Assembly (NCBI RefSeq): GCF_904067545.1
Contig: NZ_LR881183.1
Span: 310,001-374,000, forward strand
Length of the DNA stretch: 64,000 bases
Direction: 5' to 3'
Source: Thermococcus camini
GTDB taxonomy: Archaea; Methanobacteriota_B; Thermococci; Thermococcales; Thermococcaceae
Shown: in pieces, positions 11,893-53,174 of the stretch
How the letters are laid out: every line of letters starts with the position of its first letter
How positions within the stretch are numbered: position 1 is the first letter of the stretch
Notes under the pieces: generated by a model
The model's input: only the letters and a program-made list of their open reading frames with translations
Databases searched by the model: none
What the model was told of the DNA's origin: nothing
Program-made: the position numbers and the translations under genes

Positions 11893-11976
11893 GGGGACAA
11901 CTCGGTTTTGAGGGTTTATAAGTCTTGATTGGGAAAGGTTGTTAACTCCGGCATGCTATTTATCATTGGTGATAGC

Positions 11977-13023
11977 ATGAAGGCTCCCGAGCTGGGGATA
12001 AGGATAGGTCGCTACGAGCACGGAAGGAGAAATTCAATAGCCGACCTGGGGGTTAAGGTTGGCAACTCAACGATAATCGAGGGAGACGATATTAGAACGG
12101 GAGTTACAGTCCTCGTCCCGCCGGTGAAGAATCCTTACCGGGAGAGGCTCTTCGCGGGGGTTTACACCTTCAACGGCTTTTCCAAACCGATCGGGTTTAT
12201 CCAGGTGGAGGAGCTCGGCTATCTCGAAACTCCTGTAGCACTCACGAGCACGCTCAACGGCTACCGCATTGCGGACGCGCTGATAAGCCTCTGGGCCAAA
12301 GAGAACCCCGAAGGGATATCTGTCAATCCCCTCGTGATGGAGTGCAACGATGGCTACCTGAACGATAATAAAAAGCGTGCCGTTAATGAGGAACACGTCT
12401 TTGAGGCCTTCAAAAACGCTTCACTCGACTTTGAGGAAGGCTCGGTTGGAGCCGGCACCGGGATGAGCGCCTTTGAGTTCAAGGGCGGAATAGGCTCGTC
12501 GTCGAGGGTCGTCGAGATTGGCGGTGAAAGCTATACCGTTGCATCGCTCGTCCTCAGCAACTTTGGCAAGAGGGAGGATTTGGTCATAGCTGGCGTTCTC
12601 GTCGGCCTTGAGCTGAAAGACTATCCCGGAAGGGGGCTCTCCATGAGGGGGAGCATATCGATTGTAATCGCCACAGACGCGCCGCTCACATCGAGGCAAC
12701 TCACGAGAGTGGCTAGGAGGGCAATCCTTGGCCTGGCCAGGACAGGCTCCTACGGTCACAACGGGAGCGGGGACATAGTTCTGGCCTTCTCGACAGCCCA
12801 GACCGTCCCGGGCGGTAAGGAAGTCCAGTCAATAGGCTTCTTGCCCGACGATGCCCTCAACAGGCTCTTTATAGCAGTGGCGGATTCCACTGAAGAGGCG
12901 ATAATCAACTCCCTCCTGCAGGCCAGGACGATGGGGGGCAGAAACGGCAGGATCCGCTACGCCCTTCCTGTTGATAGGCTTGTGGAAATCATGGAAAGAT
13001 ACGGGAGGATTGAGAGGGCTTAA
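11977..13023 (+). CDS. P1-family peptidase (DmpA/BapA-type aminopeptidase)
   Basis: A 348-residue Ntn-hydrolase-like enzyme of peptidase family S58. Relatives remove N-terminal D- or beta-amino acids from small peptides after self-cleavage. Seen: GIRIGRYEHGRRNSIADLGV at the N-terminus, VGAGTGMSAFEFKGGIGSSSR around residues 157-177, where family members cut themselves before the Ser nucleophile (one of 174-176), and a C-terminal ATDAPLTSRQLTRVARRA. ATG 11977 follows GGTGA by four bases; a longer reading from 11929 starts inside the promoter. It is divergent from the ABC genes and its stop overlaps the next gene's stop. Physiological substrate unknown. Confidence 0.85.
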   Translation: MKAPELGIRIGRYEHGRRNSIADLGVKVGNSTIIEGDDIRTGVTVLVPPVKNPYRERLFAGVYTFNGFSKPIGFIQVEELGYLETPVALTSTLNGYRIADALISLWAKENPEGISVNPLVMECNDGYLNDNKKRAVNEEHVFEAFKNASLDFEEGSVGAGTGMSAFEFKGGIGSSSRVVEIGGESYTVASLVLSNFGKREDLVIAGVLVGLELKDYPGRGLSMRGSISIVIATDAPLTSRQLTRVARRAILGLARTGSYGHNGSGDIVLAFSTAQTVPGGKEVQSIGFLPDDALNRLFIAVADSTEEAIINSLLQARTMGGRNGRIRYALPVDRLVEIMERYGRIERA

Positions 13024-13865
13024 ACCCGTATCTCCTCGTATTTCTTTTTCATCAGGATTGCATCGCCCTCGATGTTCGGGCTCTCGCTTATGACCACTCC
13101 CTTGACTTTGAACTCCTTGAGAACCCTCAGCAGGTCTTTCCAGTTCATGTCACTCTCCTGGAGGTTCAGGTGGTTCCTCTCCCCCTTTGCTGTGTAGTTT
13201 ATGCCGCTTATGTGGATGTGCATGTTGTCTAAGGCATCTCTTCCAAGGCGGTCCTCCATCAAGGAGAGCATCTCACGCCATTCCTCAACGCTGTTGCATT
13301 TGCCTTTGTTCCTGGCATGGGCGTGGGCGAAGTCTATCGTTGGCAGGACCCTCTCTATCTCTTCGCTCAGCTTTACCAGCTCCATCAGGTCTCCGAACTG
13401 CGTGGGCTTTCCTGTCAGCTCGGGCCTTATCCACACCTCTATGCCCCTGTCCTGGAGGTTCTTTACGATGTCCTTTATCTCGCCTTTGATTTTTTCGTAG
13501 ACCTTCGCAGGGTCCTGCTTGAGGTAGTAACCGGCGTGAAAAACGACGCTCCATCCGCCCGCTTCATGGAGCCGCTCGGCGCTCTGGATTATCCTTCTCT
13601 TGCTGGCCTCGATCTTGGCCTTCTCGGCCGCGTTGAGATTGATGTAGTAAGGTGCGTGGGCCGTCAGGAGGACGTCATGCTTCTTCGCCACGTACTTTAT
13701 TTTCTTGGCCAGCTCCGGTTTTAGATTGACCCCCCTGACGAACTCAAGCTCCATCGCATCGAGCCCGAGGTTTCTCACGTGGATTATTCCGTCTATAGTT
13801 GAACGTTTTGGGGTTGAGATGGGTATTCCTGCGGTGCCGAATCGAAGCCTGTCAACTTTAAACAT
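13020..13865 (-). CDS. Endonuclease IV-like TIM-barrel protein
   Basis: A 281-residue protein of the AP endonuclease 2/xylose isomerase-like superfamily, closest to endonuclease IV (Nfo). Candidate metal ligands appear in the expected order: TAHAPYYINL, VVFHAGYY, IRPELTGK, PTIDFAHAHAR, MHIHISG and ISESP. Endonuclease IV cuts DNA 5' of abasic sites using zinc or manganese. A sugar-isomerase-like role cannot be excluded. ATG 13865 follows GGTGA by five bases. The promoter carries a perfect 8+8 palindrome (13881-13900) of the ATTAGG/CCTAAT type, which suggests metal-linked control. Confidence 0.75.
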   Translation of the reverse strand: MFKVDRLRFGTAGIPISTPKRSTIDGIIHVRNLGLDAMELEFVRGVNLKPELAKKIKYVAKKHDVLLTAHAPYYINLNAAEKAKIEASKRRIIQSAERLHEAGGWSVVFHAGYYLKQDPAKVYEKIKGEIKDIVKNLQDRGIEVWIRPELTGKPTQFGDLMELVKLSEEIERVLPTIDFAHAHARNKGKCNSVEEWREMLSLMEDRLGRDALDNMHIHISGINYTAKGERNHLNLQESDMNWKDLLRVLKEFKVKGVVISESPNIEGDAILMKKKYEEIRV

Positions 13866-13880
13866 GCTCATCACCCAAAA

Positions 13881-13900
13881 GAATTAGGGGAACCTAATTC
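13881..13900 (-). promoter_or_regulatory. Perfect ATTAGG/CCTAAT palindrome at a promoter
   Basis: GAATTAGG and CCTAATTC are exact inverted arms separated by GGAA. The site lies just downstream of a TATA-like GGTTTAT (about 13901-13909 on the minus strand) and upstream of GGGTGA, so bound protein would block initiation of the endonuclease IV-like gene. The core matches the DtxR/MntR half-site pattern and the site at 730-749. Confidence 0.55.
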
Positions 13901-13906
13901 ATAAAC

Positions 13907-14968
13907 CTATCGCTCTATCGATTCGCCGAGGATCTCCTCGAGTTTTGCCAGATTATCGTCCAGCTCCCTCTCCAGGTGCTCCAGCTTGCTCCTGAGCTTT
14001 TTGAGTTCCGTCTCCCTTTCCTCGATGAGTCTCTGGAGCTCCCACAGCTCCTTTTCCATGTCATTGATGCCTGTTAGAACCTCGTCGCGCCTCTCTTCAA
14101 GCTCCGCCAACTTTTTCCGTTCCTCCTCTATCCTCCGCGCCCTCTCCTCGAGGTTGTCGATGAGCCACTCCGCGGTCTTTCGGTACTTCCCCTCCAGGCC
14201 GGGGTGTATCTTCTTCATGAGGGATATGAACTCCTCTGGCTTTCTAAGTGCGACGGAGCTGTCCCCGACGAATTCCTGGGCGATGGTTTCGTGCAGGCGC
14301 AGCCTCTTAACGGGTTTTTGGAGCTTCGAGGCCTTCGAGCGAACTTCCATCTCTTCGCTCCGTATCCTGGCCGAGAGGATCTTTATCTCCGTCTTCACCT
14401 CTTCCAGCCCGTGCTGGCGGCGCGATTCCTCAATCTTCGCCCGCTTCTTCTTAGCCTTCTCCCGGAGCGCGCGGATCTCGTCCGTGAGTTCTTCAATGCT
14501 TCTCCTTATGGCTTTCTCCTCCGATAGAATCTCCCGTATTCTGAGGTCCTCCAGCCCCTTCTCCGCCAGTTCGTTGTAGTACTTCACGTAGTCCTCGTTC
14601 AGCTCCTTCAGCAGGCGGTTTATTGCGTAAACGTCCTTCTCGAAGAGGATTATGAGGTACCTACCGTGTCCCACGTGTAGCTTGGCTAAATCCGGAAGGC
14701 GCTTTCCGAGGTCGTCCATATCGCCGATGCTCTCCAGGGCGTTCCTGAGGGAGGTGACGTAGTTCCTCCTCTCCGCGGTCACGATTTTCCTGATGTTGTC
14801 GTCAACGTTCTTCGGGATCTCCTTCCTTTCAAGGGAGTCTATCCTCTTCAGGATCTCCCGAAGCTTTTTCTCCAGGCGTTTATTGTACTTTTTTCTTATT
14901 TTCTCGGCTTCTTTCGCGGCCTTCTTTCTCCTCTTATCGTACTCATCAAGCGCTTGCTCCAGCCTCAA
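13907..14968 (-). CDS. Coiled-coil protein, 353 residues
   Basis: Not recognised. Almost entirely charged alpha-helix: an N-terminal coiled coil (about 1-70, KKAAKEAEKIRKKYNK), a short globular part (about 85-130, LAKLHVGHGRYLIILFEKDVYAINRLL), a central coiled coil (about 150-215) and a long C-terminal coiled coil (about 265-350). It starts at TTG 14968, inside the last 23 bases of the DUF373 gene, so the two are translationally linked. A structural or scaffolding role is possible, but I cannot assign one. No P-loop is seen, so it is not an SMC/Rad50 ATPase. Confidence 0.65.
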   Translation of the reverse strand: MRLEQALDEYDKRRKKAAKEAEKIRKKYNKRLEKKLREILKRIDSLERKEIPKNVDDNIRKIVTAERRNYVTSLRNALESIGDMDDLGKRLPDLAKLHVGHGRYLIILFEKDVYAINRLLKELNEDYVKYYNELAEKGLEDLRIREILSEEKAIRRSIEELTDEIRALREKAKKKRAKIEESRRQHGLEEVKTEIKILSARIRSEEMEVRSKASKLQKPVKRLRLHETIAQEFVGDSSVALRKPEEFISLMKKIHPGLEGKYRKTAEWLIDNLEERARRIEEERKKLAELEERRDEVLTGINDMEKELWELQRLIEERETELKKLRSKLEHLERELDDNLAKLEEILGESIER

Positions 14969-41714: not shown

Positions 41715-42041
41715 ATGGACTTCCGGGAGCTTGAGGAGAAGCTTGTGGCATTCCGCGATGCACGTGGCTGGGCTGAGTACCACAAGCCCAAAAACCTTGC
41801 CATCTCTGCCGCTGTCGAGCTGGGGGAACTCCTTGAGCACTTCCAGTGGGAAAGTGATTGGGAGATACTCAAAGCCATCAAAGACCCGGCCAAGAAGGAA
41901 GCCATAGCGGACGAGATTGCCGATGTCATTATCTACCTCACACTACTCGCCCATGAGCTCGGCATAGACCTCGGCGAAGCTGTTGAGAGGAAGCTGAGGA
42001 AGAACGGGGAGAAGTACCCTGTCGAAAAAATTGGAGAATAG
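41715..42041 (+). CDS. MazG-like nucleotide pyrophosphohydrolase
   Basis: A 108-residue member of the all-alpha NTP pyrophosphatase (MazG) superfamily. The metal-binding EExxE...ExxD pattern is visible in AISAAVELGELLEHFQW and later AIADEIADVIIYLTLLA. Small MazG-like enzymes remove non-canonical or damaged nucleotides from the pool. It starts at ATG 41715 after GGTGG. Second gene of a two-gene unit; convergent with the CGP-CTERM cluster. Confidence 0.82.
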   Translation: MDFRELEEKLVAFRDARGWAEYHKPKNLAISAAVELGELLEHFQWESDWEILKAIKDPAKKEAIADEIADVIIYLTLLAHELGIDLGEAVERKLRKNGEKYPVEKIGE

Positions 42042-42053
42042 GTGGTTCACTTT

Positions 42054-42728
42054 TCACATACCGCGCCTCTTCCATCTCAGGGTTAATGGGGCCAATGTTA
42101 ATCCAACTAACAAAGCTGGACCGCAGGTTTTCTTGTCTTCCTGTCTTGGGTTTGTTGTGGAGGTGGTGGCCGTTGGGTAGGGTGGAGGGATTTTCAGTTT
42201 TGGTGGATTCCACTCGCAGGTTACGTTTGAGGGGTTGTGGCACTCGAATAGTACGTACGCGCTTGTGCTGATGTAATCCTGGTACAGGCGGATCACAACC
42301 GACGATTCGTCCATTAAGAGAACCCAGTCTGTAATGTGGTTGCTCCAGTTGTTGGGCAGGGTGGGCAGGTAGTTTTCCAAGCCCCACTGGTATTCTTCTA
42401 GGACTTTAGTGGTGTTCCATGCGGTTATGTTAAAGAGCGTTTGGTTGCACTTCGGGCACTTTGGGAGTATCTTTTCGTGAATTATGCCATCGTTGTAGCA
42501 GTACACTACCCTCTCGTGGGTCTCGTTGTATGGATAAGTTATGTATATCTCCTCTATCCCGGGGCTTTCGAAGGGGTTCCAGGGCGGGAGTGGTCCCTTG
42601 CCTTCGATTGAGACCAAATAAACGCTCTGGTTCTCCTTCACCATGTCCCAGAGGCCAAGGGCCGTTGCGGGGCTGGCTGGTGCAAAAATCATGAAAAGGA
42701 GCAGTGAAGAGATTACAAAGAGTTTCAT
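42054..42728 (-). CDS. CGP-CTERM surface protein, tandem paralog 5
   Basis: A 224-residue secreted protein and last of five tandem paralogs. It has a signal peptide (LFVISSLLLFMIFAPASPATA), the family blocks LWDMV, PPWNPFESPGI, YPYNETHERVV, VLEEYQWGLENYLP, ITDWVLLMDESSVVIRLYQ and FECHNPSNVTCEW, a Pro/Thr linker, and a CGP-CTERM anchor (CGPALLVGLTLAPL then KRR). Several N-glycosylation sequons. Start ATG 42728 has no strong ribosome-binding site; a degraded protease-tail segment precedes it. More diverged than paralogs 1-3. Function unknown; probably a surface-anchored partner of the cluster's protease. Confidence 0.75.
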   Translation of the reverse strand: MKLFVISSLLLFMIFAPASPATALGLWDMVKENQSVYLVSIEGKGPLPPWNPFESPGIEEIYITYPYNETHERVVYCYNDGIIHEKILPKCPKCNQTLFNITAWNTTKVLEEYQWGLENYLPTLPNNWSNHITDWVLLMDESSVVIRLYQDYISTSAYVLFECHNPSNVTCEWNPPKLKIPPPYPTATTSTTNPRQEDKKTCGPALLVGLTLAPLTLRWKRRGM

Positions 42729-42791
42729 GAAGGATCCAACGCCCGTTTGGGCTGGATTCTGGGTGGTGGAGGTTGCCGGTTCATTGGTTCA
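42729..42791 (-). pseudogene. Degraded protease-tail remnant before paralog 5
   Basis: After the paralog 4 stop the sequence reads TAGTGAACCAATGA, and one frame then gives PAQTGVGSFMKL running into the paralog 5 start. This resembles the protease tail TGPYTGVGYYM. The TAGTGAACCAATG string also follows paralog 3 (43489-43501). The match is short and only supported by its place in the repeated series. Confidence 0.4.
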
Positions 42792-43430
42792 CTACCTCTT
42801 CACCCGTTTTATCAGCAGAGGGGCTAACCCCAGCCCAATCAGCAACCCTGGGCCGCAGGTTTCTTTTCCGTGTGAGGTTGTGTCTTCGGTCCTTGAGGTT
42901 TCCGGTTTCTGTGGTGGTTTGGATCCTGAGACTCTGCATGATGGGTTTTGTGGTGTTAGGCAGACGATTTCGTCGTAGATTCCTTCATATTTTGTCGGGT
43001 ATATCCTTATAATGATGGAGTGCCCTCCCATGAGGGTTACCCACCTTGTAATGTTTTCGGGATCAACGCAGGGGGACGATGAGGGCTGAATATGATTCTG
43101 GTAGTATCCAACTACCTTATCGAGATCCCAGGTGACTATTGTGAAATTGTATCTCGGATACGCTGGAATATATTCCTGTTCAATGCTTCCGTTTGAATGA
43201 TAACTGACCATCTTGTAGTGGGTGTCGTTGAATGGATAAACGACTTGGATTTCATAGATTTCAGAGTCGTTGAATGGATTACACGGCATTTTGGGGCCTG
43301 AGCCGAATATAAAAACGTCGATTACGGTTTCGTTTTTGTTTATGACGTCCCAGAGGCTGAGTGCCGTGATGACGCTAGTGGAAGACATTAGGAGAAATCC
43401 AAGAAATAAAGAAATCAGGAGACGCCTCAA
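42792..43430 (-). CDS. CGP-CTERM surface protein, tandem paralog 4
   Basis: A 212-residue secreted protein, the most diverged of the five. Signal peptide LLISLFLGFLLMSSTSVITA; family blocks LWDVI, CNPFNDSEIYEIQVVYPFNDTH, WDLDKVVGYYQNHIQ, ITRWVTLMGGHSIIIRIYP; Pro/Thr/Ser linker; CGP-CTERM anchor (CGPGLLIGLGLAPLLIKRVKR). It lacks the YQWGLENYLP block. It starts at TTG 43430, seven bases after GGTGA. Its 3' flank repeats that of paralog 3. Role unknown. Confidence 0.72.
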   Translation of the reverse strand: MRRLLISLFLGFLLMSSTSVITALSLWDVINKNETVIDVFIFGSGPKMPCNPFNDSEIYEIQVVYPFNDTHYKMVSYHSNGSIEQEYIPAYPRYNFTIVTWDLDKVVGYYQNHIQPSSSPCVDPENITRWVTLMGGHSIIIRIYPTKYEGIYDEIVCLTPQNPSCRVSGSKPPQKPETSRTEDTTSHGKETCGPGLLIGLGLAPLLIKRVKR

Positions 43431-43498
43431 TCTGACCTCACCTCCAGGTAGAATCCCTGAGTGGGGCTATTGTGGCGGGTTGTCGGTCCATTGGTTCA
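43431..43498 (-). pseudogene. Degraded protease-tail remnant before paralog 4
   Basis: After the paralog 3 stop the sequence continues TGAACCAATGGACCG, and a discontinuous frame gives PHSG and, after one shift, YLEVR before GGTGA. This recalls the tails PHTGVGYYMR and TGVGYLMEVVWG. Weak by itself, but it sits at the same place as the clearer remnants. Its end supplies the GGTGA of paralog 4. Confidence 0.35.
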
Positions 43499-44188
43499 CT
43501 ACCTCTTCTGTTTTGTGAGTAGGGTAATTAACACCAATCCAATCAGCAAACCCGGCCCGCAGGTTTTCTCCTCTTGTTTTGGGGTGGTTGTTGTCGTTGG
43601 GGGTATCATCGAGTGTGTCTCGACGATTGGTTCGCTCCAGTTGCACGTCATGTTCTCTGGGTTCCGGCATTGAAAGGTTATGTAAACGCATATTTCTGTG
43701 CAGTCCCCGTATAGTGTTACTTGGAACTTACTCGCGTTTATCCAGACTTCCCAGCGGGATATTCTCCTCACCCAGTATTTTTCGGGCCATTCAACGCCGT
43801 CCACGACCTCCCCTGTTATGTTTGGGAGGTAGTTCTCCAGGCCCCACTGGTACTCTGCTAGTACCTCGGTTGTGTTCCACACTGAAAAGTTGAAGGGAGT
43901 TTTGTCCCAGTACTGTGGGTATCGGGGACTCACTTCCTCAGCCCATTTGCCATCGTATGCTGAATACGAGACAGAAAACACGTGCTCTTCGTCAAGGACG
44001 TACCTGATTTCTACCACGGTTATGGCTGAGTGGTTTAGGGGATCTTTAGGGGGCTTTCCACTGGTGAATGCGGTCACGCTCACGGAATACATTTCCCTGC
44101 TGGTGTTTATGTGTTCCCAGACGTTTACCGCACTAACCTGGGGGGTGAGGAGTAAAAGGAAAAGAATCACCAAGCCAGGTCTTTTCAT
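43499..44188 (-). CDS. CGP-CTERM surface protein, tandem paralog 3
   Basis: A 229-residue secreted protein. Signal peptide (PGLVILFLLLLTPQVSA), then VNVWEHI, PPKDPLNHSAITVVEIRYV, VLAEYQWGLENYLPNITGE, ISRWEVWINASKFQVTLYGDC, YITFQCRNPENMTCNW, a poly-Thr linker and the CGP-CTERM anchor (CGPGLLIGLVLITLLTKQKR). Sequons are frequent. ATG 44188 is six bases after GGGTGA supplied by the protease-tail remnant. Closest in layout to paralogs 1 and 2. Two Cys in LYGDCTEIC match the GGHCGEC pair of paralogs 1 and 2. Confidence 0.76.
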   Translation of the reverse strand: MKRPGLVILFLLLLTPQVSAVNVWEHINTSREMYSVSVTAFTSGKPPKDPLNHSAITVVEIRYVLDEEHVFSVSYSAYDGKWAEEVSPRYPQYWDKTPFNFSVWNTTEVLAEYQWGLENYLPNITGEVVDGVEWPEKYWVRRISRWEVWINASKFQVTLYGDCTEICVYITFQCRNPENMTCNWSEPIVETHSMIPPTTTTTPKQEEKTCGPGLLIGLVLITLLTKQKR

Positions 44189-44194
44189 GCTATG

Positions 44195-44289
44195 TCACCC
44201 CTCTTCTGGCGTTTTGATGAGGAACCTCATATAGTACCCGACGCCAGTATGCGGTGTGTTTGGTTGTGGACATACTGACGATCATGGAT
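44195..44289 (-). pseudogene. Protease-tail remnant before paralog 3
   Basis: One frame reads PQPNTPHTGVGYYMRFLIKTPEEG and stops with TGA (44195-44197) that forms the GGGTGA ribosome-binding site of paralog 3. It matches the protease C-terminus TGPYTGVGYYM. An in-frame stop lies just upstream, so only about 28 codons remain. Not translated on its own as far as I can see. Confidence 0.6.
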
Positions 44290-44970
44290 TCACCTCTTTA
44301 CCCGTTTTATCATGAGGGGAACTAAAATTAACCCGATTAATACTGCCGGTCCGCAAATTGCGTTTTCTTCCCTTGTCGTGCTTGTTGTTATGTCTTTTGG
44401 CGCCCATGGGGGAGTTATCACCCTAAAAACTGGCTTCCTCCACTGGCAGGTTACATTGTTCCCTTCTCTCCGGCATTCGAAGGTAATGTACTGCTCGCAC
44501 TCGCCACAATGCCCACCATAAAGGACAACCTTGAACTTGCTTGCTGAGAGTGTGACTTCCCACCTGGTTATTGTGCTGTTCCAGTAGCCCTTATGCCAGT
44601 GTTTTCCACTAACGTTCGGCAGGTAATTCACAACGCCCCACTGGTATTCTTTGAGGATCTTTGAGAGGTTCCAGTCTGTTATGTTGAAGGGTTTTGGGTT
44701 TCCGTGTTTGGGGAAGAAGCCTTCCTTCCATTTTCCTCCTTCGTAATATTTGTTGAACGTGTGGGTTTCGTTGTATTTGTAGCCTATGTTAATCCAGGTT
44801 ATGGAAGAGTCATTGAAGGGATTCCACGGTGGAACCCCAGTAAGACTGTATCCTTCAATGTTGACGTAGTAAATGGGCTTATCGATCAAACCTTCCCACA
44901 CGCGTACACCATTTACTAATGGGACTGAGAGTAGCAGGGCAAAAACAAAAATTGAAAAGCGAACCCCCAC
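44290..44970 (-). CDS. CGP-CTERM surface protein, tandem paralog 2
   Basis: A 226-residue secreted protein, very like paralog 1: signal peptide (FSIFVFALLLSVPLVNG), VRVWEGL, PPWNPFNDSSITWINIGYKYNETH, EYQWGVVNYLPNVSG, HWHKGYWNSTITRWEVTLSA, FKVVLYGGHCGECEQYITFEC, NNVTCQWRKPVFRVITPPWAP, TTSTTREEN linker and CGP-CTERM anchor (CGPAVLIGLILVPLMIKRVKR). Starts at GTG 44970, four bases after GGTGA that ends the protease-tail remnant. The GGHCGEC segment may bind metal or form a disulfide. Function unknown. Confidence 0.78.
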   Translation of the reverse strand: MGVRFSIFVFALLLSVPLVNGVRVWEGLIDKPIYYVNIEGYSLTGVPPWNPFNDSSITWINIGYKYNETHTFNKYYEGGKWKEGFFPKHGNPKPFNITDWNLSKILKEYQWGVVNYLPNVSGKHWHKGYWNSTITRWEVTLSASKFKVVLYGGHCGECEQYITFECRREGNNVTCQWRKPVFRVITPPWAPKDITTSTTREENAICGPAVLIGLILVPLMIKRVKR

Positions 44971-44974
44971 AGCA

Positions 44975-45061
44975 TCACCCCCAGTTAACCCTTAGATAGT
45001 AGCCTACTCCAGTGTACGGGCCAACCTTTGGAGTATAGCCTACTGGTAGGTTGGTTTTCAT
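44975..45061 (-). pseudogene. Protease-tail remnant before paralog 2 (28 codons)
   Basis: The clearest remnant: from ATG 45061 it reads MKTNLPVGYTPKVG, then PYTGVGYYLRVNWG and TGA (44975-44977). It matches the last residues of both cluster proteases (TAKTGPYTGVGYYMIVNRG; VPRTGPYTGVGYLMEVVWG). The terminal GGGTGA is the ribosome-binding site of paralog 2. It could be expressed as a tiny peptide, but I see no ribosome-binding site before 45061. Confidence 0.65.
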
Positions 45062-45081
45062 CTTATCATCTCTCACAATAG

Positions 45082-45783
45082 TTATTTGTTCTTTCTCCTT
45101 TCCAGCGCTGGAATAAGAGCCAGCACAATTATCAAAACAGGGCCGCAGATTGTGTTTTCTTCCCTTGTCGTGCTCGTTGTTGTGTTCTTTGGCGCCCACG
45201 GAGGAGCTATGAACCTGAAGACCGGCTTCCCCCACTGGCAAGTTACGTTGGTTCCATTTCTCCAGCATTGGAAGGTAATGTACTGTTCACACTCACCACA
45301 ATGCCCGCCGTAGAGGGTTACTTTGAATGTGGTCGCGTTGAGTTCGACTTCCCATCTGGTTATAGTACTGTTCCAGTAACCTTTAGGCCAGTACTTTCCC
45401 GTAACATTTGGCAGGTAGTTCTCAACCCCCCACTGGTACTGCTTGATAACTTCTGGTAAATTCCAGTCCGAAAGGTTGAACGGTACTTTTGGTGTCCAGT
45501 GGCTTTTAGGGACGAAGTACGTGATGTCTTCTACCCATCTTCCCCCTTCGTAGTGAAACTCCCTATAATGAGTCTCGTTGTAGGGCAAATTAATCACGGC
45601 GTACTCTATCTCTGAATCGTTGAGGGGATCCCATGGTGGGATTCCCCTTTTCAAAAATGAGTCGCCCCTAATGTACATGAACAGATAGGTTTGGTTTTGG
45701 TCGAGTTTCTCCCACACGTTGATTGCCCCGGCTGGTTGCATGAGCATTAAAAAGGCAAAAAGCAATGGGAGGAATCGCTTCAT
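45082..45783 (-). CDS. CGP-CTERM surface protein, tandem paralog 1
   Basis: A 233-residue secreted protein, first of the five. Signal peptide (LPLLFAFLMLMQPAGA), INVWEKL, PPWDPLNDSEIEYAVINLPYNETHY, QYQWGVENYLPNVTG, YWPKGYWNSTITRWEVEL, FKVTLYGGHCGECEQYITFQC, TNVTCQWGKPVFRFIAPPWAP, TTSTTREEN linker and a CGP-CTERM anchor (CGPVLIIVLALIPALERRKNK). It follows the short protease gene directly; the protease's last codons (CGG GGG TGA) provide its ribosome-binding site, so the two are co-translated. That pairing suggests a functional partner of the protease. Confidence 0.8.
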   Translation of the reverse strand: MKRFLPLLFAFLMLMQPAGAINVWEKLDQNQTYLFMYIRGDSFLKRGIPPWDPLNDSEIEYAVINLPYNETHYREFHYEGGRWVEDITYFVPKSHWTPKVPFNLSDWNLPEVIKQYQWGVENYLPNVTGKYWPKGYWNSTITRWEVELNATTFKVTLYGGHCGECEQYITFQCWRNGTNVTCQWGKPVFRFIAPPWAPKNTTTSTTREENTICGPVLIIVLALIPALERRKNK

Positions 45784-45787
45784 TTTC

Positions 45788-46891
45788 TCACCCCCGGTTG
45801 ACGATCATGTAGTAGCCAACACCCGTGTATGGTCCTGTTTTTGCTGTGTAGTTGGCTGGGAATTGAGCGTCTTCGTTTCCATCAAAGTTGAGGTCCAAAT
45901 ATAAGCCCGCATCTATATCGTAGACATAATGATGCCCCAGAGTGTGTCCTTTTGCAAGGAGTGCAAACACAACCTCCCACGCAGATTCATGAACTTGAGG
46001 AACACCATCGATCCAGTATTCACTCTGCCAGTGAGTGGGCATAATTGAGTCAAGTGTGTTAAATTTAGGTCCACCATACATCACTATCAGTTCGAGCAGT
46101 CCATATCCGGTTTTTTCTTCGAGTTCTCTGGAAACGTTTTCGAGCTGTTCTTTGAAAACTGCGTAGTCTTTTGGTGTGCTTATCTCCGTCCACAGGTCAC
46201 CGGCTTCCATTACCGTCTTCATCTTCTCGAATTCTATGCCGTATTTACTCCAAAGAAGATCCTTTAGAGCCCCATAGGTGAACCCGTCCATTTTATTATC
46301 GTTATTTGGATCCCATAAGAAAGGCGCACCGTACTCGTCACCTATGCCGAAGACGAAGTGGCCAAGCTCATGTGCCATACCTCCATACCATCCCTTGTTT
46401 AACGGGCCACCATACCAGTCCCACGGGAAGAGAATGTATCCCTCCTCCTTTCTATTGAGATTCTTTACCCACTTCCAGTACCAGAAACCATGAATGGTTT
46501 TTGGTGTTATGTTAGTCCTCAACGTCATCCTTATCATGTAGTCCTCCCATTCCTCGCTCTCCTCGGACACATTGTTCTTTATGCTAACCTCTGTTATCAT
46601 CGCGTACCCGTCGGTGTAGTCGTAGATGACCTGACTTGCCTTCTGGAATCCCCATAAGAGTTGGGTGAGCTCGGTTTGATTTGCATCCCAGCCAACGGCC
46701 ACGGTAGGTTTAATACCCAGAACATCGCTCAGCGCGGGATTCTTCCCTATGAACAGCTCAACCGCGTTCGGAACACCGTCGCGGTCGTAGTCGCCGTAAG
46801 CGTCCTTTTCAATGAGACCCTCGTAGATTGCTAGATCATCAACCCAGAACCCGTCCGATGGATCGAACCTCTCCATGGTTCTTCCTTTCAT
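45788..46891 (-). CDS. Short metalloprotease-domain protein without signal peptide
   Basis: A 367-residue protein homologous to the last 380 or so residues of the large protease at 48712-52581. It shares a Ca-binding DYDRDGVPNAVELFIGKNP loop, VIYDYTDGYAMITEV, the zinc motif HELGHFVFGIGDEY (HELGH near residue 174), the TVM...EISTPKDY block and the tail TGPYTGVGYYM. The motif has the HExxHxxxGxxDE form known from CLCA-type metzincin-like proteases. There is no signal peptide, so it may be a truncated copy, cytoplasmic or non-functional. ATG 46891 has GGAAGTGA before it; ATG 46876 is an alternative. Confidence 0.72.
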   Translation of the reverse strand: MKGRTMERFDPSDGFWVDDLAIYEGLIEKDAYGDYDRDGVPNAVELFIGKNPALSDVLGIKPTVAVGWDANQTELTQLLWGFQKASQVIYDYTDGYAMITEVSIKNNVSEESEEWEDYMIRMTLRTNITPKTIHGFWYWKWVKNLNRKEEGYILFPWDWYGGPLNKGWYGGMAHELGHFVFGIGDEYGAPFLWDPNNDNKMDGFTYGALKDLLWSKYGIEFEKMKTVMEAGDLWTEISTPKDYAVFKEQLENVSRELEEKTGYGLLELIVMYGGPKFNTLDSIMPTHWQSEYWIDGVPQVHESAWEVVFALLAKGHTLGHHYVYDIDAGLYLDLNFDGNEDAQFPANYTAKTGPYTGVGYYMIVNRG

Positions 46892-46917
46892 TTTCACTTC
46901 CTTTCCTCTATCTCAAT

Positions 46918-47784
46918 TTATTTTCTCCAGCAGGGCAGTCCGTATTCTGTTTTTTCTATCGTTCCGTTGTTGTGAATTGTAATTTTGTACACGGTTCTGC
47001 ATTCTCCTAGCTCCTCGGCGATGCTCCAAGGATCGGGGTTGAGAACGGTTTCATTCTTCGTTACGAGGATACCCCACGCGGACTCAAAGTACCGGGAAAC
47101 GTTGGCTGGAAGGCTTGTGTTTCCAATCTGGGGAAGGTCAAGCTTTGGAATATAACCACCGACGATTCCGATGGGATATTCTATTTCTAGGATGTCATGA
47201 GTGCTGTTATACTGCATGATTTTGAGGATAAAAGCTAAGAGGCACTTGTCCTCTGAGGGAAAGACTAGGTAGCCCCCTGTAACGTTAGTGTGTCCCAGTC
47301 TCACGAGTTCCCAGCTTTCTCCAAGGGTGACTCTGCACTTTGGACAGATGGTTATGAACCTCTGGCAGGGAACAGAATTCTGCATCAGTTCCTCAAGAGA
47401 GTTTCCTTTAAAGACCCTTACCGTGCCATTGGATTTTACTATCAGTCCTGCTTTAACGCGCTCAAGGTTCTCAACACTTTTTGCTTCAAATGAGAGGGGT
47501 GAATAGTCAGCGTACGTTTTAACGCTTCTGACGTGGTGTTCCACCTCTGGAATTATGTTTCCTTTCAGTTTGAGAATGTGAAGTGTTAGGTTTCCGTTCT
47601 GATATACTGCCAGCCTCCACTCGTCCTCTTGATATTGCATGAGGATTATTCCTTCGGTAGCCCCTGCATTGTTTAGAACACAGGAGGGCGTATTGAAGCA
47701 GGAGGTAATCTCATGCCGTTCCCAGACTACCCATGATGAGAAGACGAGGAAAGCTATGATAATGATGAGGACAGTCTTCCTCAT
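46918..47784 (-). CDS. Membrane-anchored hypothetical protein B (paralog of 47813-48715)
   Basis: A 288-residue protein with an N-terminal anchor (TVLIIIIAFLVFSSWVV) and an extracellular beta-rich domain. It shares with its neighbour the pattern W.(F/L)A.Y....L.V...., a V(E/K)T..(N/D)YSPL block and a following helix (SVENLERVKAGLIVK). Six or more cysteines (CPKC; CRTV; PCW near the C-terminus). Not recognised. It begins ATG 47784 in a GGGGATGAG context identical to that of the neighbour's start, which marks a duplication. Located between the two proteases. Confidence 0.65.
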   Translation of the reverse strand: MRKTVLIIIIAFLVFSSWVVWERHEITSCFNTPSCVLNNAGATEGIILMQYQEDEWRLAVYQNGNLTLHILKLKGNIIPEVEHHVRSVKTYADYSPLSFEAKSVENLERVKAGLIVKSNGTVRVFKGNSLEELMQNSVPCQRFITICPKCRVTLGESWELVRLGHTNVTGGYLVFPSEDKCLLAFILKIMQYNSTHDILEIEYPIGIVGGYIPKLDLPQIGNTSLPANVSRYFESAWGILVTKNETVLNPDPWSIAEELGECRTVYKITIHNNGTIEKTEYGLPCWRK

Positions 47785-47807
47785 CCCCAGACCACCTCCA
47801 ACAAACA
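47780..47807 (-). pseudogene. Protease-tail remnant before the 46918-47784 gene
   Basis: Bases 47781-47807 read CLLEVVWG then TGA, the same end as the large protease (LMEVVWG then TGA), overlapping the next ATG as ATGA. The 21 bases 47780-47800 are identical to 48711-48731 at the real protease end. It shows that the duplicated unit included the protease tail. Confidence 0.65.
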
Positions 47808-47812
47808 GGACT

Positions 47813-48715
47813 TTAAGTTTCTTGTTTGTTGCACTTTAGGGGTGTGTCTTCTGTTTTCCTATTGAGGTGCCAAGTTGGAAGCCTTTCTTTCATTGAAATT
47901 CCCTTGAAGTATTTTTCAACAGATACCCAATTTAATCCTGCGTTCGGGAAAAAGCAGTAGCTCTCAATTTTGGCAAAACTGGTGTTATTGGTCAAATGAT
48001 GAGTGGAAACGTTGAGGATAGCTTCAATCAATTGCCCGTTGAGCTTAAACGAGCCATGATAAAAGGTCTTGCCCGACCCTGTTATCGTAACGTCTGAGTA
48101 GTAAACGGCGAGGATTGAAGTATGTTCTCCATTAGGTATTTCGATGACAGGTATAAAAGAAGGTTTATTGCTTAGACTGGGAATTACTAAAACATCTTCC
48201 GTACCGATTTCATAGGCGCGGGAATCCACATGAAGATAGGTTTTTATCCAAAGTTCTTTTTTGGCGTATAGTATGGCAATCCTTCTGATTGTTTTGTTGT
48301 CGTACTGTTTAAGGATTTGCTCTACCGTTGGGAAGTTTGGTGGGTTTTGTTCTGTATACCATTTTCCGGCGAAGAGTAGTGATGGAGTTCCTTCTGGCAC
48401 TTTTTCGAGGAGTTTTAAGTCAAGGGTAAGTGGAGAATAGTTTAATTGTGTTTCCACGGTTTTTGTTTTCCTGGTTCTGAAAAATAGCGGAGAATTCTGA
48501 CTAATGTAATAAACTTTGAGTTCCTGAGTTTTAGGGTTGTACGTTGCGAACTGCCAGCAATCCTTGTCGTGATAGACGGCAATGAGCTTTTCACTGTTGG
48601 AAATTCCTGCTAACTTATAAGTACCCTCTGCCGAGGAAAGTTGATGGTAAGTGTAGGCATTGTATGCGAAAAAAGAAAGGAGCAAAATCAGGAGAAAAAC
48701 AAAAAGAGATCTCAT
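47813..48715 (-). CDS. Membrane-anchored hypothetical protein A
   Basis: A 300-residue protein with an N-terminal anchor (LFVFLLILLLSFFAYNAYTY) and an extracellular domain (DKDCWQFATYNPKTQELKVYYIS, VETQLNYSPLTLDLKLLEKV, GTEDVLVIPSLSNKPSFIPVIEI). No family recognised. Its ATG overlaps the large protease's TGA (ATGA), so the two are translated together. It could be a partner, inhibitor or substrate of the protease. Paralogous to 46918-47784. AT-rich codon use compared with housekeeping genes. Confidence 0.65.
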   Translation of the reverse strand: MRSLFVFLLILLLSFFAYNAYTYHQLSSAEGTYKLAGISNSEKLIAVYHDKDCWQFATYNPKTQELKVYYISQNSPLFFRTRKTKTVETQLNYSPLTLDLKLLEKVPEGTPSLLFAGKWYTEQNPPNFPTVEQILKQYDNKTIRRIAILYAKKELWIKTYLHVDSRAYEIGTEDVLVIPSLSNKPSFIPVIEIPNGEHTSILAVYYSDVTITGSGKTFYHGSFKLNGQLIEAILNVSTHHLTNNTSFAKIESYCFFPNAGLNWVSVEKYFKGISMKERLPTWHLNRKTEDTPLKCNKQET

Positions 48716-51700
48716 CCCCAGACCACCTCCATGAGGTAACCAACGCCTGTATAAGGCCCAGTTCTAGGAACAAAACCTAAATCAACAACAGAGTCAATTT
48801 GGATTCCATTGGACATAATTATATTCTGTGGTCTGCATGCATATGCCCCTTTGCTGGGATCCTCAAGTGGTACGCATGCGTTTATTTCCAGATTCTCGCT
48901 TGTGAGAATTTTGTACAGTGTTTCCCATCCTGAAGAATGCCACTTATCTGGATCGTTCGGGTCTCCCCATTGGTCTGGGAGCATGTCTGTGTCTGTAGTG
49001 TATCCCATGTTTATCCAGGCATTTTGGTATTTTTGCCATAACTGATAAGTCCAGTTTCTAAACATCTTGTAGTCTCTTGGGGTACTAAGTTCACTCCATT
49101 CCCACTGCTTGTTCATTACTGTATGTAAGCTAAGCATTTTTCCAGTGAGGATTAAATATATTTCGGGAGTTTCAGGCCCCACGAATTCTGTTAATACTGC
49201 TGGATACCATTCTCCATATTTGTGCCCATGCCAGTCTAGATATTCATCACGCAACCAGAAGACATAATGGCCAAGTTCGTGCCCCAACATTTCTCCCCAG
49301 TCTTCTTCCCCTATTGAGCCCCAAAAGTTTCCTCCCCAAAATTTCTCAGACATCATTATATGTATGAATGCTTTCTCTTGGGGAGATACCCCAGGATCTC
49401 TTTTCATCCAGTATCCTCCGACTACAGCTTTTGGCCATCCAGGATATAGGAGTTCTCCTGATGTTTGAGGAATTTGCCATGTAGTGTCATGTACTCTCAC
49501 ATCTGCTACGTCCCAGTTTCTCTTCTTGTCCCAGATCCTGACTTGTGTAATCATTGCGTAGCCGTCCGTGTAGTCGTAGATGAAGTCACTTGCCCTTCTG
49601 ATGCTGTAAATCAGGTTTTTCTTGTCTTCTTCGCTCATCGTCCATTCTACTGATATGTTCAGTTCAATGCCGAGGATATCTCTCTTCGCCGGATCTTTTC
49701 CAATAAATAGTTCAACACTGTTTGGAACACCGTCTCCATCGTAGTCATAGTATGTGTCGTCACTCGTTGGTGAGAACTTGTTGGTTCCAAGCTCTTTGTT
49801 AAGCTCCAGCTCTCTGTGGAATGGTATCCCATCGCCGTCGGCGTCGTTCAGTTTGATGAGGAACCATATTTCTGCATCGTCCTCATCAACGTCCGTTGAG
49901 GTTGCAACGGCGTCAAAGGTCAGCGAGCTCGTCTCAGTTGAGGTTTCTGAACTCGAAACTGACTCGGTGCTGAGGGTTTTAACGTTCTCAGTTTCGTTCC
50001 TGAAGATTAACGTCGCCTCGTATCTGGCACCCTTTCCGATTCTGGCTGTTGCATTGGTTGTGACATTGCTCACATTGGTGCCGTTGCCTTCCCCTCCCGT
50101 GGACATTGCGTTCACTTCCTCGTTTAGTTTCATTGCCCTCACTTTGGCGTTTCGTTTGTTGATGATGAGAACCTTCCTATGGGTCCCGTTGGGGAGTGAG
50201 AGCGTGAAGAGTACAGCTTCCTCAGGGTTTGTGTACCGATAAAGGATTCCGCTCTTGTGATCCCTTAGTTCTAAAGATTCTATCCCGTCCCAGCCCTGAA
50301 CGTTCGTGATGTTAACGACGCTTAAATCATAGCCAAGGGCCTCAAGTTCATCATAGTACTTGGAGAAAGGCTCAATGTCGGTGCTTGGGTTTATATCACC
50401 ACAGGAACCGTCGCCACAGCCACTCAGATGGCCGTAACCGAAGTATTCCTTATGATCGTTGGGATAGTCGTCTCCGCTCCAGGTTCCGGTTAGAGTGTTA
50501 AACACTATATGGGCAAATGGAGAGGATGTTGGTGAGATGTCCAGCACGTTTTCTCCATCGTTCAGGTTTAACCACAAATCTACAGTCTCTGCGTTGTCTG
50601 GGATGTCAAAGGTGAACTTTGCTATTGCCTGCTCATCTATGTTGCTGAAAATATTTTCTCTGAGGAGGGTTCTCTTTTCGTAGTCTGTGGTCATATATGC
50701 AAGTTGTGAATTGTATACTTCTTGATATTTTCCGTTTATAAGTGTAAACGCTTTTAAGCTGACGTCTCCGCTAACTGCATCGAGTTCCCGGTACCTAAAT
50801 ATGTAGACAGTTACCGTTGCATCTGTAAACGGCTCTATATCCTCCGCGTTGCACCACCCATCCCTGTCACTGTCTGCAATAACTGTGACGTTCATTCTGT
50901 AGGTTTCTCCAGTCTTTCCGTACTTGTCCACGGGGGCGAACTCGACGGTAACGTTCTCCCGACAGTTGGTGTAACTGTATAGGACGAGATAGAACCCTCC
51001 AGATTCTCCTGAGGGCACCTGGGGAACGAGAAAACTGAAGCGTCCGCCAACGTTTACCCACACGTTTACAGTATCCCCATCAGGGTCGTAAACATAAACC
51101 TGGCCGGTGTTGTTGTCGTTGGCGTACACCTGGCCTGGAAATTCAACGCTCTCAATCCTCGGTGGGGAGTTGGGCCTCACGTAGATCTTTCTGCTCCACT
51201 CGCTCGTTGAGCCGTCTTCAGCGGTCATTATTATCGTGAAGTTGTGATAGCCTGCAGTTGGCCGGCTCCAGATTAGATAAAATCCGTCATACTGGTTATG
51301 GGCGTAGATGAATCCTCTACTGAACTCATCAACTTTAGCCCCATCAACCAAAAGCGTGAGCTGTATATCTTGAGTTGTATCTGTTGGATTTTTGGCTGTG
51401 ATGTTGAACCTCAGGGGATAATCCATTACCGGAGTGTTATACCTTACTTCACTGATATATGGGTGGGGAGTAGCGTCTACGTGGAATGTCTTTCCAATGG
51501 TGGCAGTTTCTCCGTTGTAGTCCGGGACGAACTTGACTACCAGCGTGTGGTTTCCGGGAGTTGCTGTCCATGCCCCGTAAACGTTGTAGTATCTTATACT
51601 GTATTTTCTCACGCTCACGTCTCTTTCAGTCTTTACCAGCGTACCGTCTACGTATACCTCTATAGTTCCGGTCCCGTCGAGTGCACCCCTGTTGTCCAGC

Positions 51701-52581
51701 TTCAAGGTCAGCGACATGTATTCCCCGTCTATCGGCGGATCTGGTTGTATTGTGATCCCCTCAATGGCAATCTCCGGTGATGCCTGGTACTGGTATCTTG
51801 AAATCACATTACCCCAGCGGTCTATAAGGTACAGGACATCGCCATCGTTGTTTAGTATCGCACTTTCTGGGGAGCTGGCTATCAAAATTTTTATGGGGGT
51901 GTACGGGGGTGCGGAACTGCTGAGTTCTATTGAATGGTCCCTGCCAAAAGCGTCGGTGCACTCTTCTTTGGGAGTGCTGTTCATCCAGCAGCTTGGGTTG
52001 CCGTATGCATAATCATCGAGAAGGTGCCACCCTTCCAGGCTCTGAGATATAGAGCTGGGGTTGTACAGGTAGGTGTACTCGCCGGTTCCATCGTTGGTTA
52101 GATAATCAACGTCTATTATTTGAACCGCTGAGCTGGTTGAAAGGAGTTCGACCTTGAACTCGTTGTTGATGCTCTCCGTTGATTGGACTGAATATGTGCT
52201 GCTTTCTTTTTCCCTTTGAATGGCTTCCAGCGCTCTCCTTGGATTCCTCCAGAGGTAAGTTTTTATTATAGTGGGCTCGGTGCCGTTGTACCACCAGATC
52301 TGGAATATCAAGTTAGTTCCGTTCCAGTGTGCATTTCTGATTCTCATGTTCTCTGAGATTACCATCTCCCCGTTCAGCGTGCCGTTTAGAAGGGCTTCCA
52401 TTAGCGTCAGTATTGCTCTTCTTTCCTCCGGGGTGGCGTTCTGGAGGGCGTTAAGGTACCTCTCGAAGAACGGGTTAATAATGCCCCCCCCGTTTTGGGT
52501 CTCTGATACTGCTCCGGTTGTCTGTGGCAGGCCGCTCAGTACGAGCAACACGGCGAGAACCACTACAACCAGCCGCCTCAT
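48712..52581 (-). CDS. Large secreted metalloprotease with lamin-tail, CARDB-like and Ca-binding modules
   Basis: A 1,289-residue exported protein. In order: signal peptide (RRLVVVVLAVLLVLSGLPQTTGA), a lamin-tail-like domain (about 145-260, IIDVDYLTNDGTGEYTYLYNPSS), a CARDB-like domain (about 265-370), further Ig-like domains, Ca loops (DSDRDGWCNAEDIEPF, DADGDGIPFHRELEL, DYDGDGVPNSVELFIGKDP) and a C-terminal zinc protease domain with HELGHYVFWLRDEY (HELGH at residues 1101-1105) and tail TGPYTGVGYLMEVVWG. The active-site motif is of the HExxH...DE type but lacks the usual Gly (here Trp). ATG 52581 follows GGTGA by five bases. Substrate unknown. Confidence 0.8.
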   Translation of the reverse strand: MRRLVVVVLAVLLVLSGLPQTTGAVSETQNGGGIINPFFERYLNALQNATPEERRAILTLMEALLNGTLNGEMVISENMRIRNAHWNGTNLIFQIWWYNGTEPTIIKTYLWRNPRRALEAIQREKESSTYSVQSTESINNEFKVELLSTSSAVQIIDVDYLTNDGTGEYTYLYNPSSISQSLEGWHLLDDYAYGNPSCWMNSTPKEECTDAFGRDHSIELSSSAPPYTPIKILIASSPESAILNNDGDVLYLIDRWGNVISRYQYQASPEIAIEGITIQPDPPIDGEYMSLTLKLDNRGALDGTGTIEVYVDGTLVKTERDVSVRKYSIRYYNVYGAWTATPGNHTLVVKFVPDYNGETATIGKTFHVDATPHPYISEVRYNTPVMDYPLRFNITAKNPTDTTQDIQLTLLVDGAKVDEFSRGFIYAHNQYDGFYLIWSRPTAGYHNFTIIMTAEDGSTSEWSRKIYVRPNSPPRIESVEFPGQVYANDNNTGQVYVYDPDGDTVNVWVNVGGRFSFLVPQVPSGESGGFYLVLYSYTNCRENVTVEFAPVDKYGKTGETYRMNVTVIADSDRDGWCNAEDIEPFTDATVTVYIFRYRELDAVSGDVSLKAFTLINGKYQEVYNSQLAYMTTDYEKRTLLRENIFSNIDEQAIAKFTFDIPDNAETVDLWLNLNDGENVLDISPTSSPFAHIVFNTLTGTWSGDDYPNDHKEYFGYGHLSGCGDGSCGDINPSTDIEPFSKYYDELEALGYDLSVVNITNVQGWDGIESLELRDHKSGILYRYTNPEEAVLFTLSLPNGTHRKVLIINKRNAKVRAMKLNEEVNAMSTGGEGNGTNVSNVTTNATARIGKGARYEATLIFRNETENVKTLSTESVSSSETSTETSSLTFDAVATSTDVDEDDAEIWFLIKLNDADGDGIPFHRELELNKELGTNKFSPTSDDTYYDYDGDGVPNSVELFIGKDPAKRDILGIELNISVEWTMSEEDKKNLIYSIRRASDFIYDYTDGYAMITQVRIWDKKRNWDVADVRVHDTTWQIPQTSGELLYPGWPKAVVGGYWMKRDPGVSPQEKAFIHIMMSEKFWGGNFWGSIGEEDWGEMLGHELGHYVFWLRDEYLDWHGHKYGEWYPAVLTEFVGPETPEIYLILTGKMLSLHTVMNKQWEWSELSTPRDYKMFRNWTYQLWQKYQNAWINMGYTTDTDMLPDQWGDPNDPDKWHSSGWETLYKILTSENLEINACVPLEDPSKGAYACRPQNIIMSNGIQIDSVVDLGFVPRTGPYTGVGYLMEVVWG

Positions 52582-52660
52582 CCATATCACCATTAACGGT
52601 CGTTGCATTCTAGGTATTGGAGAATTGTGAATAAAAACATTGCGGGAACGAATCAAATTA

Positions 52661-53119
52661 TCACTCAAAGTGTTGTCCAAACGCCTCCCTCAGCCTCTCG
52701 ACCTCTTCCTCCCTCAGCCTGTTCTTTACCCAGCGCTCCCTCATGCTCAGGTTCTCGTCTTCCAAATCAAGGACTGCCTTCCTGACGCCGCCCCTCGGGT
52801 GAGCGCAGTCCCCTTCCCAGCGGGGAATCACTTGGAGGTGAATGTGCGGAACGGTCTGGCCGGCCGCTCTTCCGAGGTTCATCCCCACGTTGAACCCGTC
52901 CGGCTTGAAGGCTTCTCTCAGCTTCTCCATCGCCAGCTCCATGCCCCTTATCAGGGCGACCTTTTCTTCCCCGCTCAGCTCTTCCCAGCTCTCGACGTGC
53001 CTCCTGGGGACGACCAGCAGGTGTCCCCGGTTCGCCGGGTATGAGTCGAGGAGTATTCTAATCAGCTCGTCCTCGTAAAGGATTGCCTCGGGCCTTGCGC
53101 TGCAGAAAGGGCATTCCAT
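52661..53119 (-). CDS. HIT-family hydrolase
   Basis: A 152-residue histidine-triad protein. The N-terminal CPFCSARPEAILYED has the Cys pair of the zinc-type HIT group, and the triad HIHLQVIPRW (QTVPHIHLQV) is intact. HIT proteins hydrolyse dinucleoside polyphosphates or AMP-amino acid adducts. ATG 53119 lies five bases after GGTGG. It is followed downstream by the protease gene, but 80 bases and a separate promoter region intervene. Confidence 0.87.
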   Translation of the reverse strand: MECPFCSARPEAILYEDELIRILLDSYPANRGHLLVVPRRHVESWEELSGEEKVALIRGMELAMEKLREAFKPDGFNVGMNLGRAAGQTVPHIHLQVIPRWEGDCAHPRGGVRKAVLDLEDENLSMRERWVKNRLREEEVERLREAFGQHFE

Positions 53120-53174
53120 CGCCACCACCAAAGGCTTAAAACGGGTTCCCGATAAAAAGCCCTCGGTGAGTGCG

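Follow-up and report, generated by a model that had tools for sequence, protein, structure and literature searches.

The window analysed here is a 64,000-nucleotide stretch of the Thermococcus camini genome (contig NZ_LR881183.1, positions 310,001 to 374,000), and all coordinates below are counted from its first letter. It harbors five adjacent genes for surface proteins with a CGP-CTERM anchor, which form the downstream half of a row of genes that all lie on the minus strand (42054-52680), headed by the gene for a large secreted protein with a putative C-terminal metallopeptidase domain (CT). An earlier note on this DNA described the five as a tandem array, and five complete minus-strand open reading frames (ORFs) do fill 42054-45783 exactly and align over their full length. 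The note overlooked the upstream peptidase gene, an orphan peptidase domain and two more anchored partners, as well as pieces of lost peptidase domains that lie among the paralogs.

Gene content of the locus

The order of transcription is PROT, O300, O288, P369, CGP5, CGP4, CGP3, CGP2, CGP1; the CGP proteins are numbered by ascending coordinate, the reverse of that order. The features of the run and its borders are as follows.

52661-53131, minus strand: HIT-family-like flank gene, conserved left border (by synteny; named from sequence appearance)
48712-52680, minus strand: PROT, secreted carrier with a C-terminal metallopeptidase domain (ORF; 1322 amino acids counted from the first TTG)
49660-49760, minus strand: recombination junction, the conserved YYDYDGDGVPNSVELFIGKDPAKRDILGI segment separating carrier and CT (identity break)
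48712-49740, minus strand: CT of PROT, a candidate toxin-like, metzincin-like peptidase domain (A2 profile, E=1e-106)
47813-48715, minus strand: O300, putative cognate partner of PROT, with an N-terminal membrane anchor and an ectodomain (4-nt overlap with the PROT stop)
46918-47784, minus strand: O288, second N-terminally anchored partner-like protein, an orphan (homologous orphans in genomes G058 and G037)
45788-46897, minus strand: P369, orphan CT without a signal peptide, with its own junction segment (CT homology)
45082-45783, minus strand: CGP5, putative cognate partner of P369, with signal peptide, ectodomain and CGP-CTERM anchor (4 nt downstream of P369)
44978-45082, minus strand: 3'-end remnant of a lost CT, about 34 codons, upstream of CGP4 (A2 profile, E=2.4e-10)
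44290-44970, minus strand: CGP4, orphan partner (ORF, alignment)
44198-44257, minus strand: 3'-end remnant of a second lost CT, about 19 codons, upstream of CGP3 (matches the CT tail of locus L049)
43499-44188, minus strand: CGP3, orphan partner (ORF, alignment)
42792-43430, minus strand: CGP2, orphan partner with a TTG start (ORF, alignment)
42726-42746, minus strand: TGVGSFM, a possible trace of a CT tail, a few codons long, that extends into the start of CGP1 (score 19.7, marginal)
42054-42728, minus strand: CGP1, orphan partner (ORF, alignment)
41715-42041, plus strand: MazG-like flank gene, conserved right border (by synteny; named from sequence appearance)

The five CGP proteins

All five proteins feature the hallmarks of CGP-CTERM, namely a C-terminal Cys-Gly-Pro, a hydrophobic segment and a basic end; when the genome was scanned with the corresponding model (TIGR04288), three scored above the cut-off and two just below it. 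Their alignment contains 28 invariant columns, including W27, H71, Y113-Q114, C163, C171 and the CGP at 202-204. The sequence blocks described in the earlier note fit CGP3 to CGP5, but CGP2 lacks EYQWG.ENYLP, and CGP1 and CGP2 carry variant ITRWEV blocks. Its statement that copies 1 and 2 are close and 4 and 5 diverged is correct in transcription order only: the pair at 45082 and 44290 (CGP5 and CGP4) is 58% identical, and the others 28-43%. The N-glycosylation sequons that it reported number 6-9 per ectodomain, against 1.3-1.8 expected after shuffling.

We agree with the note that these proteins represent one uncharacterised family of divergent surface domains; their ectodomains are matched by no Pfam or NCBIfam family. 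Scans of the five proteins and their neighbours with both collections left the ectodomains unmatched and found the CGP tail alone; likewise, a sequence search of the PDB returned just the tail of an archaeal endoglucanase. The CGP5 ectodomain (45169-45726) is modelled as one mixed alpha/beta domain (pLDDT 87), for which a Foldseek search gave no convincing known relative (E above 0.1). The best VIA match of this model is a putative lipoprotein of C. difficile, 4exr (Z 7.0, next 4.4; 123 residues, rmsd 4.3), a likeness too weak to use, though it may hint at how the partner folds.

The carrier and its C-terminal domain

PROT comprises a leader, a lamin-tail-like (LTD-like) domain (E=5.5e-6) and weak matches to CBM60 and CARDB. 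As listed from its TTG start, about 33 residues precede the hydrophobic leader (52590-52680); translation probably begins at an internal ATG ahead of MRRLVVVVLAVLLVLSG. The CT carries HELGHYVFWLRDEY and the tail TGPYTGVGYLMEVVWG (GPYTGVGY). Across 16 CTs aligned from related loci, the HExxH, a Met in TVM or TIM and the GPYTGVGY tail are invariant, and HExxHxxxxxx[DE][DE]Y is present in all 28 CTs long enough to reach the motif. The tail is nearly invariant even among CTs less than 35% identical, and may act in processing, in the substrate cleft or as homology for recombination. Judged from the motif, the spacing to the presumed acidic ligand is one residue longer than in the classical HExxHxxGxxH/D, and the Met is predicted to lie as in a Met-turn.

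The most frequent Pfam match of these domains is PF09471 (family M64), which is weak (4 of 16 CTs, best E=0.0061) and which neither PROT nor P369 reaches even when hits up to E=1 are admitted; a PDB sequence search with the CT returned no match. A structure model of the CT is poor (pLDDT 53.5), and the best folds found with this low-confidence model are metzincins, ADAMTS4 and ADAM17 (Foldseek probability 0.97, E=0.025; VIA Z 8.9). P369 consists of a CT alone, without a leader, and shares 67% DNA identity with PROT over 238 nt at the junction. A CT of the P369 type forms the tip of a full carrier in another genome (locus L059 of G055, 77%).

Pairing of tip and partner across genomes

We searched 94 Thermococcaceae genomes for the CT by profile and compared the related loci. 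The CT occurs in 21 of them, in one of which (G019) it is just a 3'-end remnant; the profile had no match in the other genomes of the class that were searched. In all 30 cases where the 3' end of a CT could be read, the next gene begins between -17 and +6 nt from it and encodes an ectodomain protein with a membrane anchor. These partners come in two designs, either a leader, ectodomain and CGP tail or an N-terminal helix and ectodomain, as in O300, whose family (A5) is found in 16 of the 94 genomes. Both designs would put the ectodomain outside the cell, where a secreted peptidase would act, because one combines a leader with a C-terminal anchor and the other has N-terminal positive residues before the helix.

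Partner genes are present in all 21 genomes with a CT versus 2 of the 73 without (Fisher p=5e-19). The two are the incomplete assembly G050 and the complete genome G031, which encodes relatives of O300 (88%) and CGP3 (82%) and no peptidase. Distances among CTs correlate with those among their CGP partners (Mantel r=0.86, p=5e-5) and, for the N-anchored type, at r=0.53.

Many CT 3' ends (MEVVWG, with the stop overlapping ATGA) contain GGAGGTG, for example at 48712-48715 of the window. The CT tail thus probably doubles as the ribosome-binding site of the partner gene, which may explain the survival of short tails. Some partner arrays exceed the CGP array of the window in size: in G018 (L095), G032 (L096) and G029 (L098), about nine N-anchored partner genes of several subfamilies lie behind one peptidase.

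Cassette exchange at one junction

Tips are exchanged between carriers at a single site. The carriers of loci L049, L050 and L056 are 85-90% identical over about 1000 residues, and their CTs 36-47%; identity falls from 80% to about 30-45% at one conserved segment. Their partners differ in kind, being CGP-A, CGP-B and N-anchored, respectively. L048 and L054 present the converse, with carriers 55%, CTs 81% and partners 68% identical. Locus L052 (G028) occupies the HIT/MazG site where the window has PROT, and its carrier is 87% identical in DNA up to about residue 997 of PROT (near 49683). Past this junction, its CT is 63-67% identical to that of L048 (the L048/P369 type) vs 29-36% to that of PROT, and its partner is a CGP protein where the window has O300. 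The comparison was made piecewise, as the L052 gene is broken: this swapped-tip carrier (10371-14267) is a pseudogene with several stops and frameshifts, followed by an intact CGP gene. Because CT and partner are both decoupled from the carrier, these comparisons indicate that the two travel together between carriers as a cassette.

Remnants of lost tips in the array

The remnants between the CGP genes match the partners beside them. The remnant upstream of CGP4 is most similar to the CT of L048 (92% amino acid identity over 24 residues, 86% DNA identity over 66 bp), whose cognate partner is a 79% homolog of CGP4. The one upstream of CGP3 corresponds to the CT tail of L049, with 95% identity in protein and also, over 58 bp, in DNA; the partner at L049 resembles CGP3 (57%). 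Since L048 and L049 each hold both members, remnant and surviving partner come from the same pair in both cases.

Local tandem duplication is rejected as the source of the array, as each copy is closest to a gene in another genome and not to its neighbours: CGP1 in G058 (84%), CGP2 in G016 (91%), CGP3 in G031 (82%), CGP4 in G060 (79%) and CGP5 in G050 (71%). O288 is likewise 84% and 78% identical to orphans in G058 and G037. These alignments, with which a tree agrees, indicate that the copies accreted as old, separate lineages, of which at least CGP5, CGP4 and CGP3 demonstrably derive from positions behind their own peptidase tips.

The retained orphans look maintained by purifying selection. 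For the closest orphan pairs, the ratio of nonsynonymous to synonymous substitution rates (dN/dS), a pairwise average, is 0.15-0.28 (O288, 0.22-0.28), and no positive selection is seen when averaged in this way over the ectodomain within a type. The earlier note had suggested comparing the ectodomain with the anchor, and the outcome is the opposite of what diversification predicts: in orthologous orphan pairs, the ectodomain is 75-93% identical and the faster-evolving linker and anchor 39-72%.

Proposed function and alternatives

We propose that the five CGP proteins, displayed on the cell surface, probably confer immunity to a secreted metallopeptidase toxin of the polymorphic, tip-swapping kind. 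In this model, PROT would combine a constant N-terminal region with an exchangeable, metzincin-like C-terminal tip that cleaves surface proteins of competing Thermococcus. The product of the gene directly downstream, held on the outer membrane face of the producer by a CGP tail or an N-terminal helix, would bind and block the tip. An incoming cassette of tip and immunity gene would recombine at the junction, removing the old tip and leaving its immunity gene in place, and the retained gene would go on protecting the cell from relatives in which the old tip persists. Repeated replacement may have built the array of O288, CGP4, CGP3, CGP2 and CGP1, and P369-CGP5 could be a complete stored cassette. 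At the level of the organism, we see roughly even chances that this is an archaeal kin-discrimination locus, in which a surface-acting, tip-swapping metallopeptidase is used against relatives without ever entering the target, and arrays of displayed inhibitors or decoys in two topologies decide which strain survives. To our knowledge, conflict between archaea is barely documented, and weapon-and-shield systems are almost unstudied in Thermococcus.

Several observations weigh against the immunity model. Given the low-confidence model of the CT, its putative assignment to the metzincins is drawn from the motif, weak M64 matches and weak fold matches; the modelled fold of the CGP5 ectodomain resembles no known inhibitor in the fold search; and killing by a protease from outside the cell is unusual among polymorphic toxins. 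The Mantel correlation partly reflects shared ancestry. On the side of the remnants, the 7-residue trace at CGP1 is marginal (score 19.7, background P=0.005), and candidate CT tails before CGP2 and O288 (P about 0.008) were not counted, as their LEVR and LEVVWG overlap the GGAGGTG ribosome-binding site.

Alternatively, the partner could be a membrane tether, receptor or foldase, so that a match to the tip forces joint swapping and no conflict between cells is involved. This would account for a partner that always adjoins its tip, is translationally coupled to it, co-varies with it and is membrane-anchored; however, a tether or foldase has no use in long heterogeneous arrays behind one peptidase, nor would partners be kept under purifying selection in a genome without a peptidase (G031), and the matched remnants show the peptidase lost and the partner kept. 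We therefore regard this explanation as rather unlikely. A second alternative is self-protection from a nutritional or S-layer-remodelling peptidase, with variants that reflect substrate range and not antagonism. Thermococcus lives on peptides and secreted proteases are common there, and the biochemistry would be the same as that of immunity; a scattered distribution (21 of 94 genomes), the exchange of tips at one site and the keeping of unmatched inhibitors instead point to conflict, and we consider this option unlikely. Finally, tandem duplicates of an adhesin-like domain diversifying against a virus or another cell, which extends the reading of the earlier note, would suit the divergent ectodomains, sequons and surface anchors, but are very improbable given copies less similar to one another than to relatives spread over five other genomes, dN/dS well below 1 with an ectodomain more conserved than its anchor, and a peptidase cassette context left unexplained. 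What survives of that reading is the divergent array itself and the idea of a changing partner, which fits well, since every type of CGP protein is matched to its own variant of the neighbouring peptidase domain; tandem duplication and positive selection do not.

Under the immunity model, CGP-CTERM proteins of a class that has had no function so far would gain a concrete one. The model lends itself to testing, as the ectodomains of the partners are small and some species of the order can be manipulated genetically.

Relation to described systems

The locus displays every genomic trait of polymorphic toxin systems that we examined: a conserved N-terminus with an exchangeable tip, a matched downstream partner, orphan tips and orphan immunity genes. 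As in the bacterial examples (contact-dependent inhibition (CDI) systems, Rhs proteins and the auxiliary clusters of the type VI secretion system (T6SS)), a constant carrier bears a variable C-terminal effector beside its partner. The closest parallel is Vibrio cholerae, whose T6SS orphan immunity arrays arose by successive effector displacement (PMC5361080); those arrays likewise feature orphan partner genes, displaced effector 3' ends, orphan tips and cassette exchange among strains. Unlike these bacterial systems, the present one is archaeal, has a predicted secreted metzincin and partners anchored outside the cell, and is known from genes alone. No type V, VI or VII secretion (T5/T6/T7) machinery is seen at the locus.

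Among archaeal systems, the locus is comparable to VARTIG (PMC8416519), which is restricted to Thermococcales, begins with a large secreted protein with a hypervariable C-terminus, continues with many small membrane proteins and resembles a polymorphic toxin system (PTS). The VARTIG C-terminus, however, is an Ig domain ending in DNNxxxGG, versus a peptidase tip ending in GPYTGVGY at a HIT/MazG locus here. Membership in VARTIG (arCOG07710) is rejected, as D[ND]NxxxG[GD] occurs in none of the 28 peptidases and none of the 29 partners and the variable C-terminus is an HExxH domain and not Ig. The VARTIG authors see the chief weakness of a toxin interpretation of their module in the fact that no toxin could be identified; a peptidase of the present kind is not mentioned in the main text of their paper (PMC8416519). 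The Thermococcales module described here, for its part, has a candidate effector that can be identified, a matching partner next to it, alleles that differ in their tips at one chromosomal site, and traces of earlier swaps.

HExxH metallopeptidases also serve as C-terminal effectors in the Tox-MPTase and zincin toxin domains (PMC3482391), which differ in their RHS-, T6SS- or TcdB-type carriers and are mostly listed without immunity partners. The CT is unlike that group in being, putatively, M64/adamalysin-like, with HExxHxxxxxxDEY. It shares HExxH with peptidase family M64 (IgA peptidase, PF09471) but has no confident full-domain match to it.

Borders and genomic context

Scans for sigma-70 promoters and terminators, with models not meant for archaea, gave no excess over shuffled sequence. 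No relative of the CT was found on the plasmids, phages or viral contigs searched, so these give no sign of a mobile element. The HIT/MazG site is syntenic in more than 10 genomes, with differing contents. At this site in G016 (L055, 9510-11083), the carrier is reduced to its first 27 or so codons, after which come a broken gene resembling CGP3 and an intact ortholog of CGP2 (91%).

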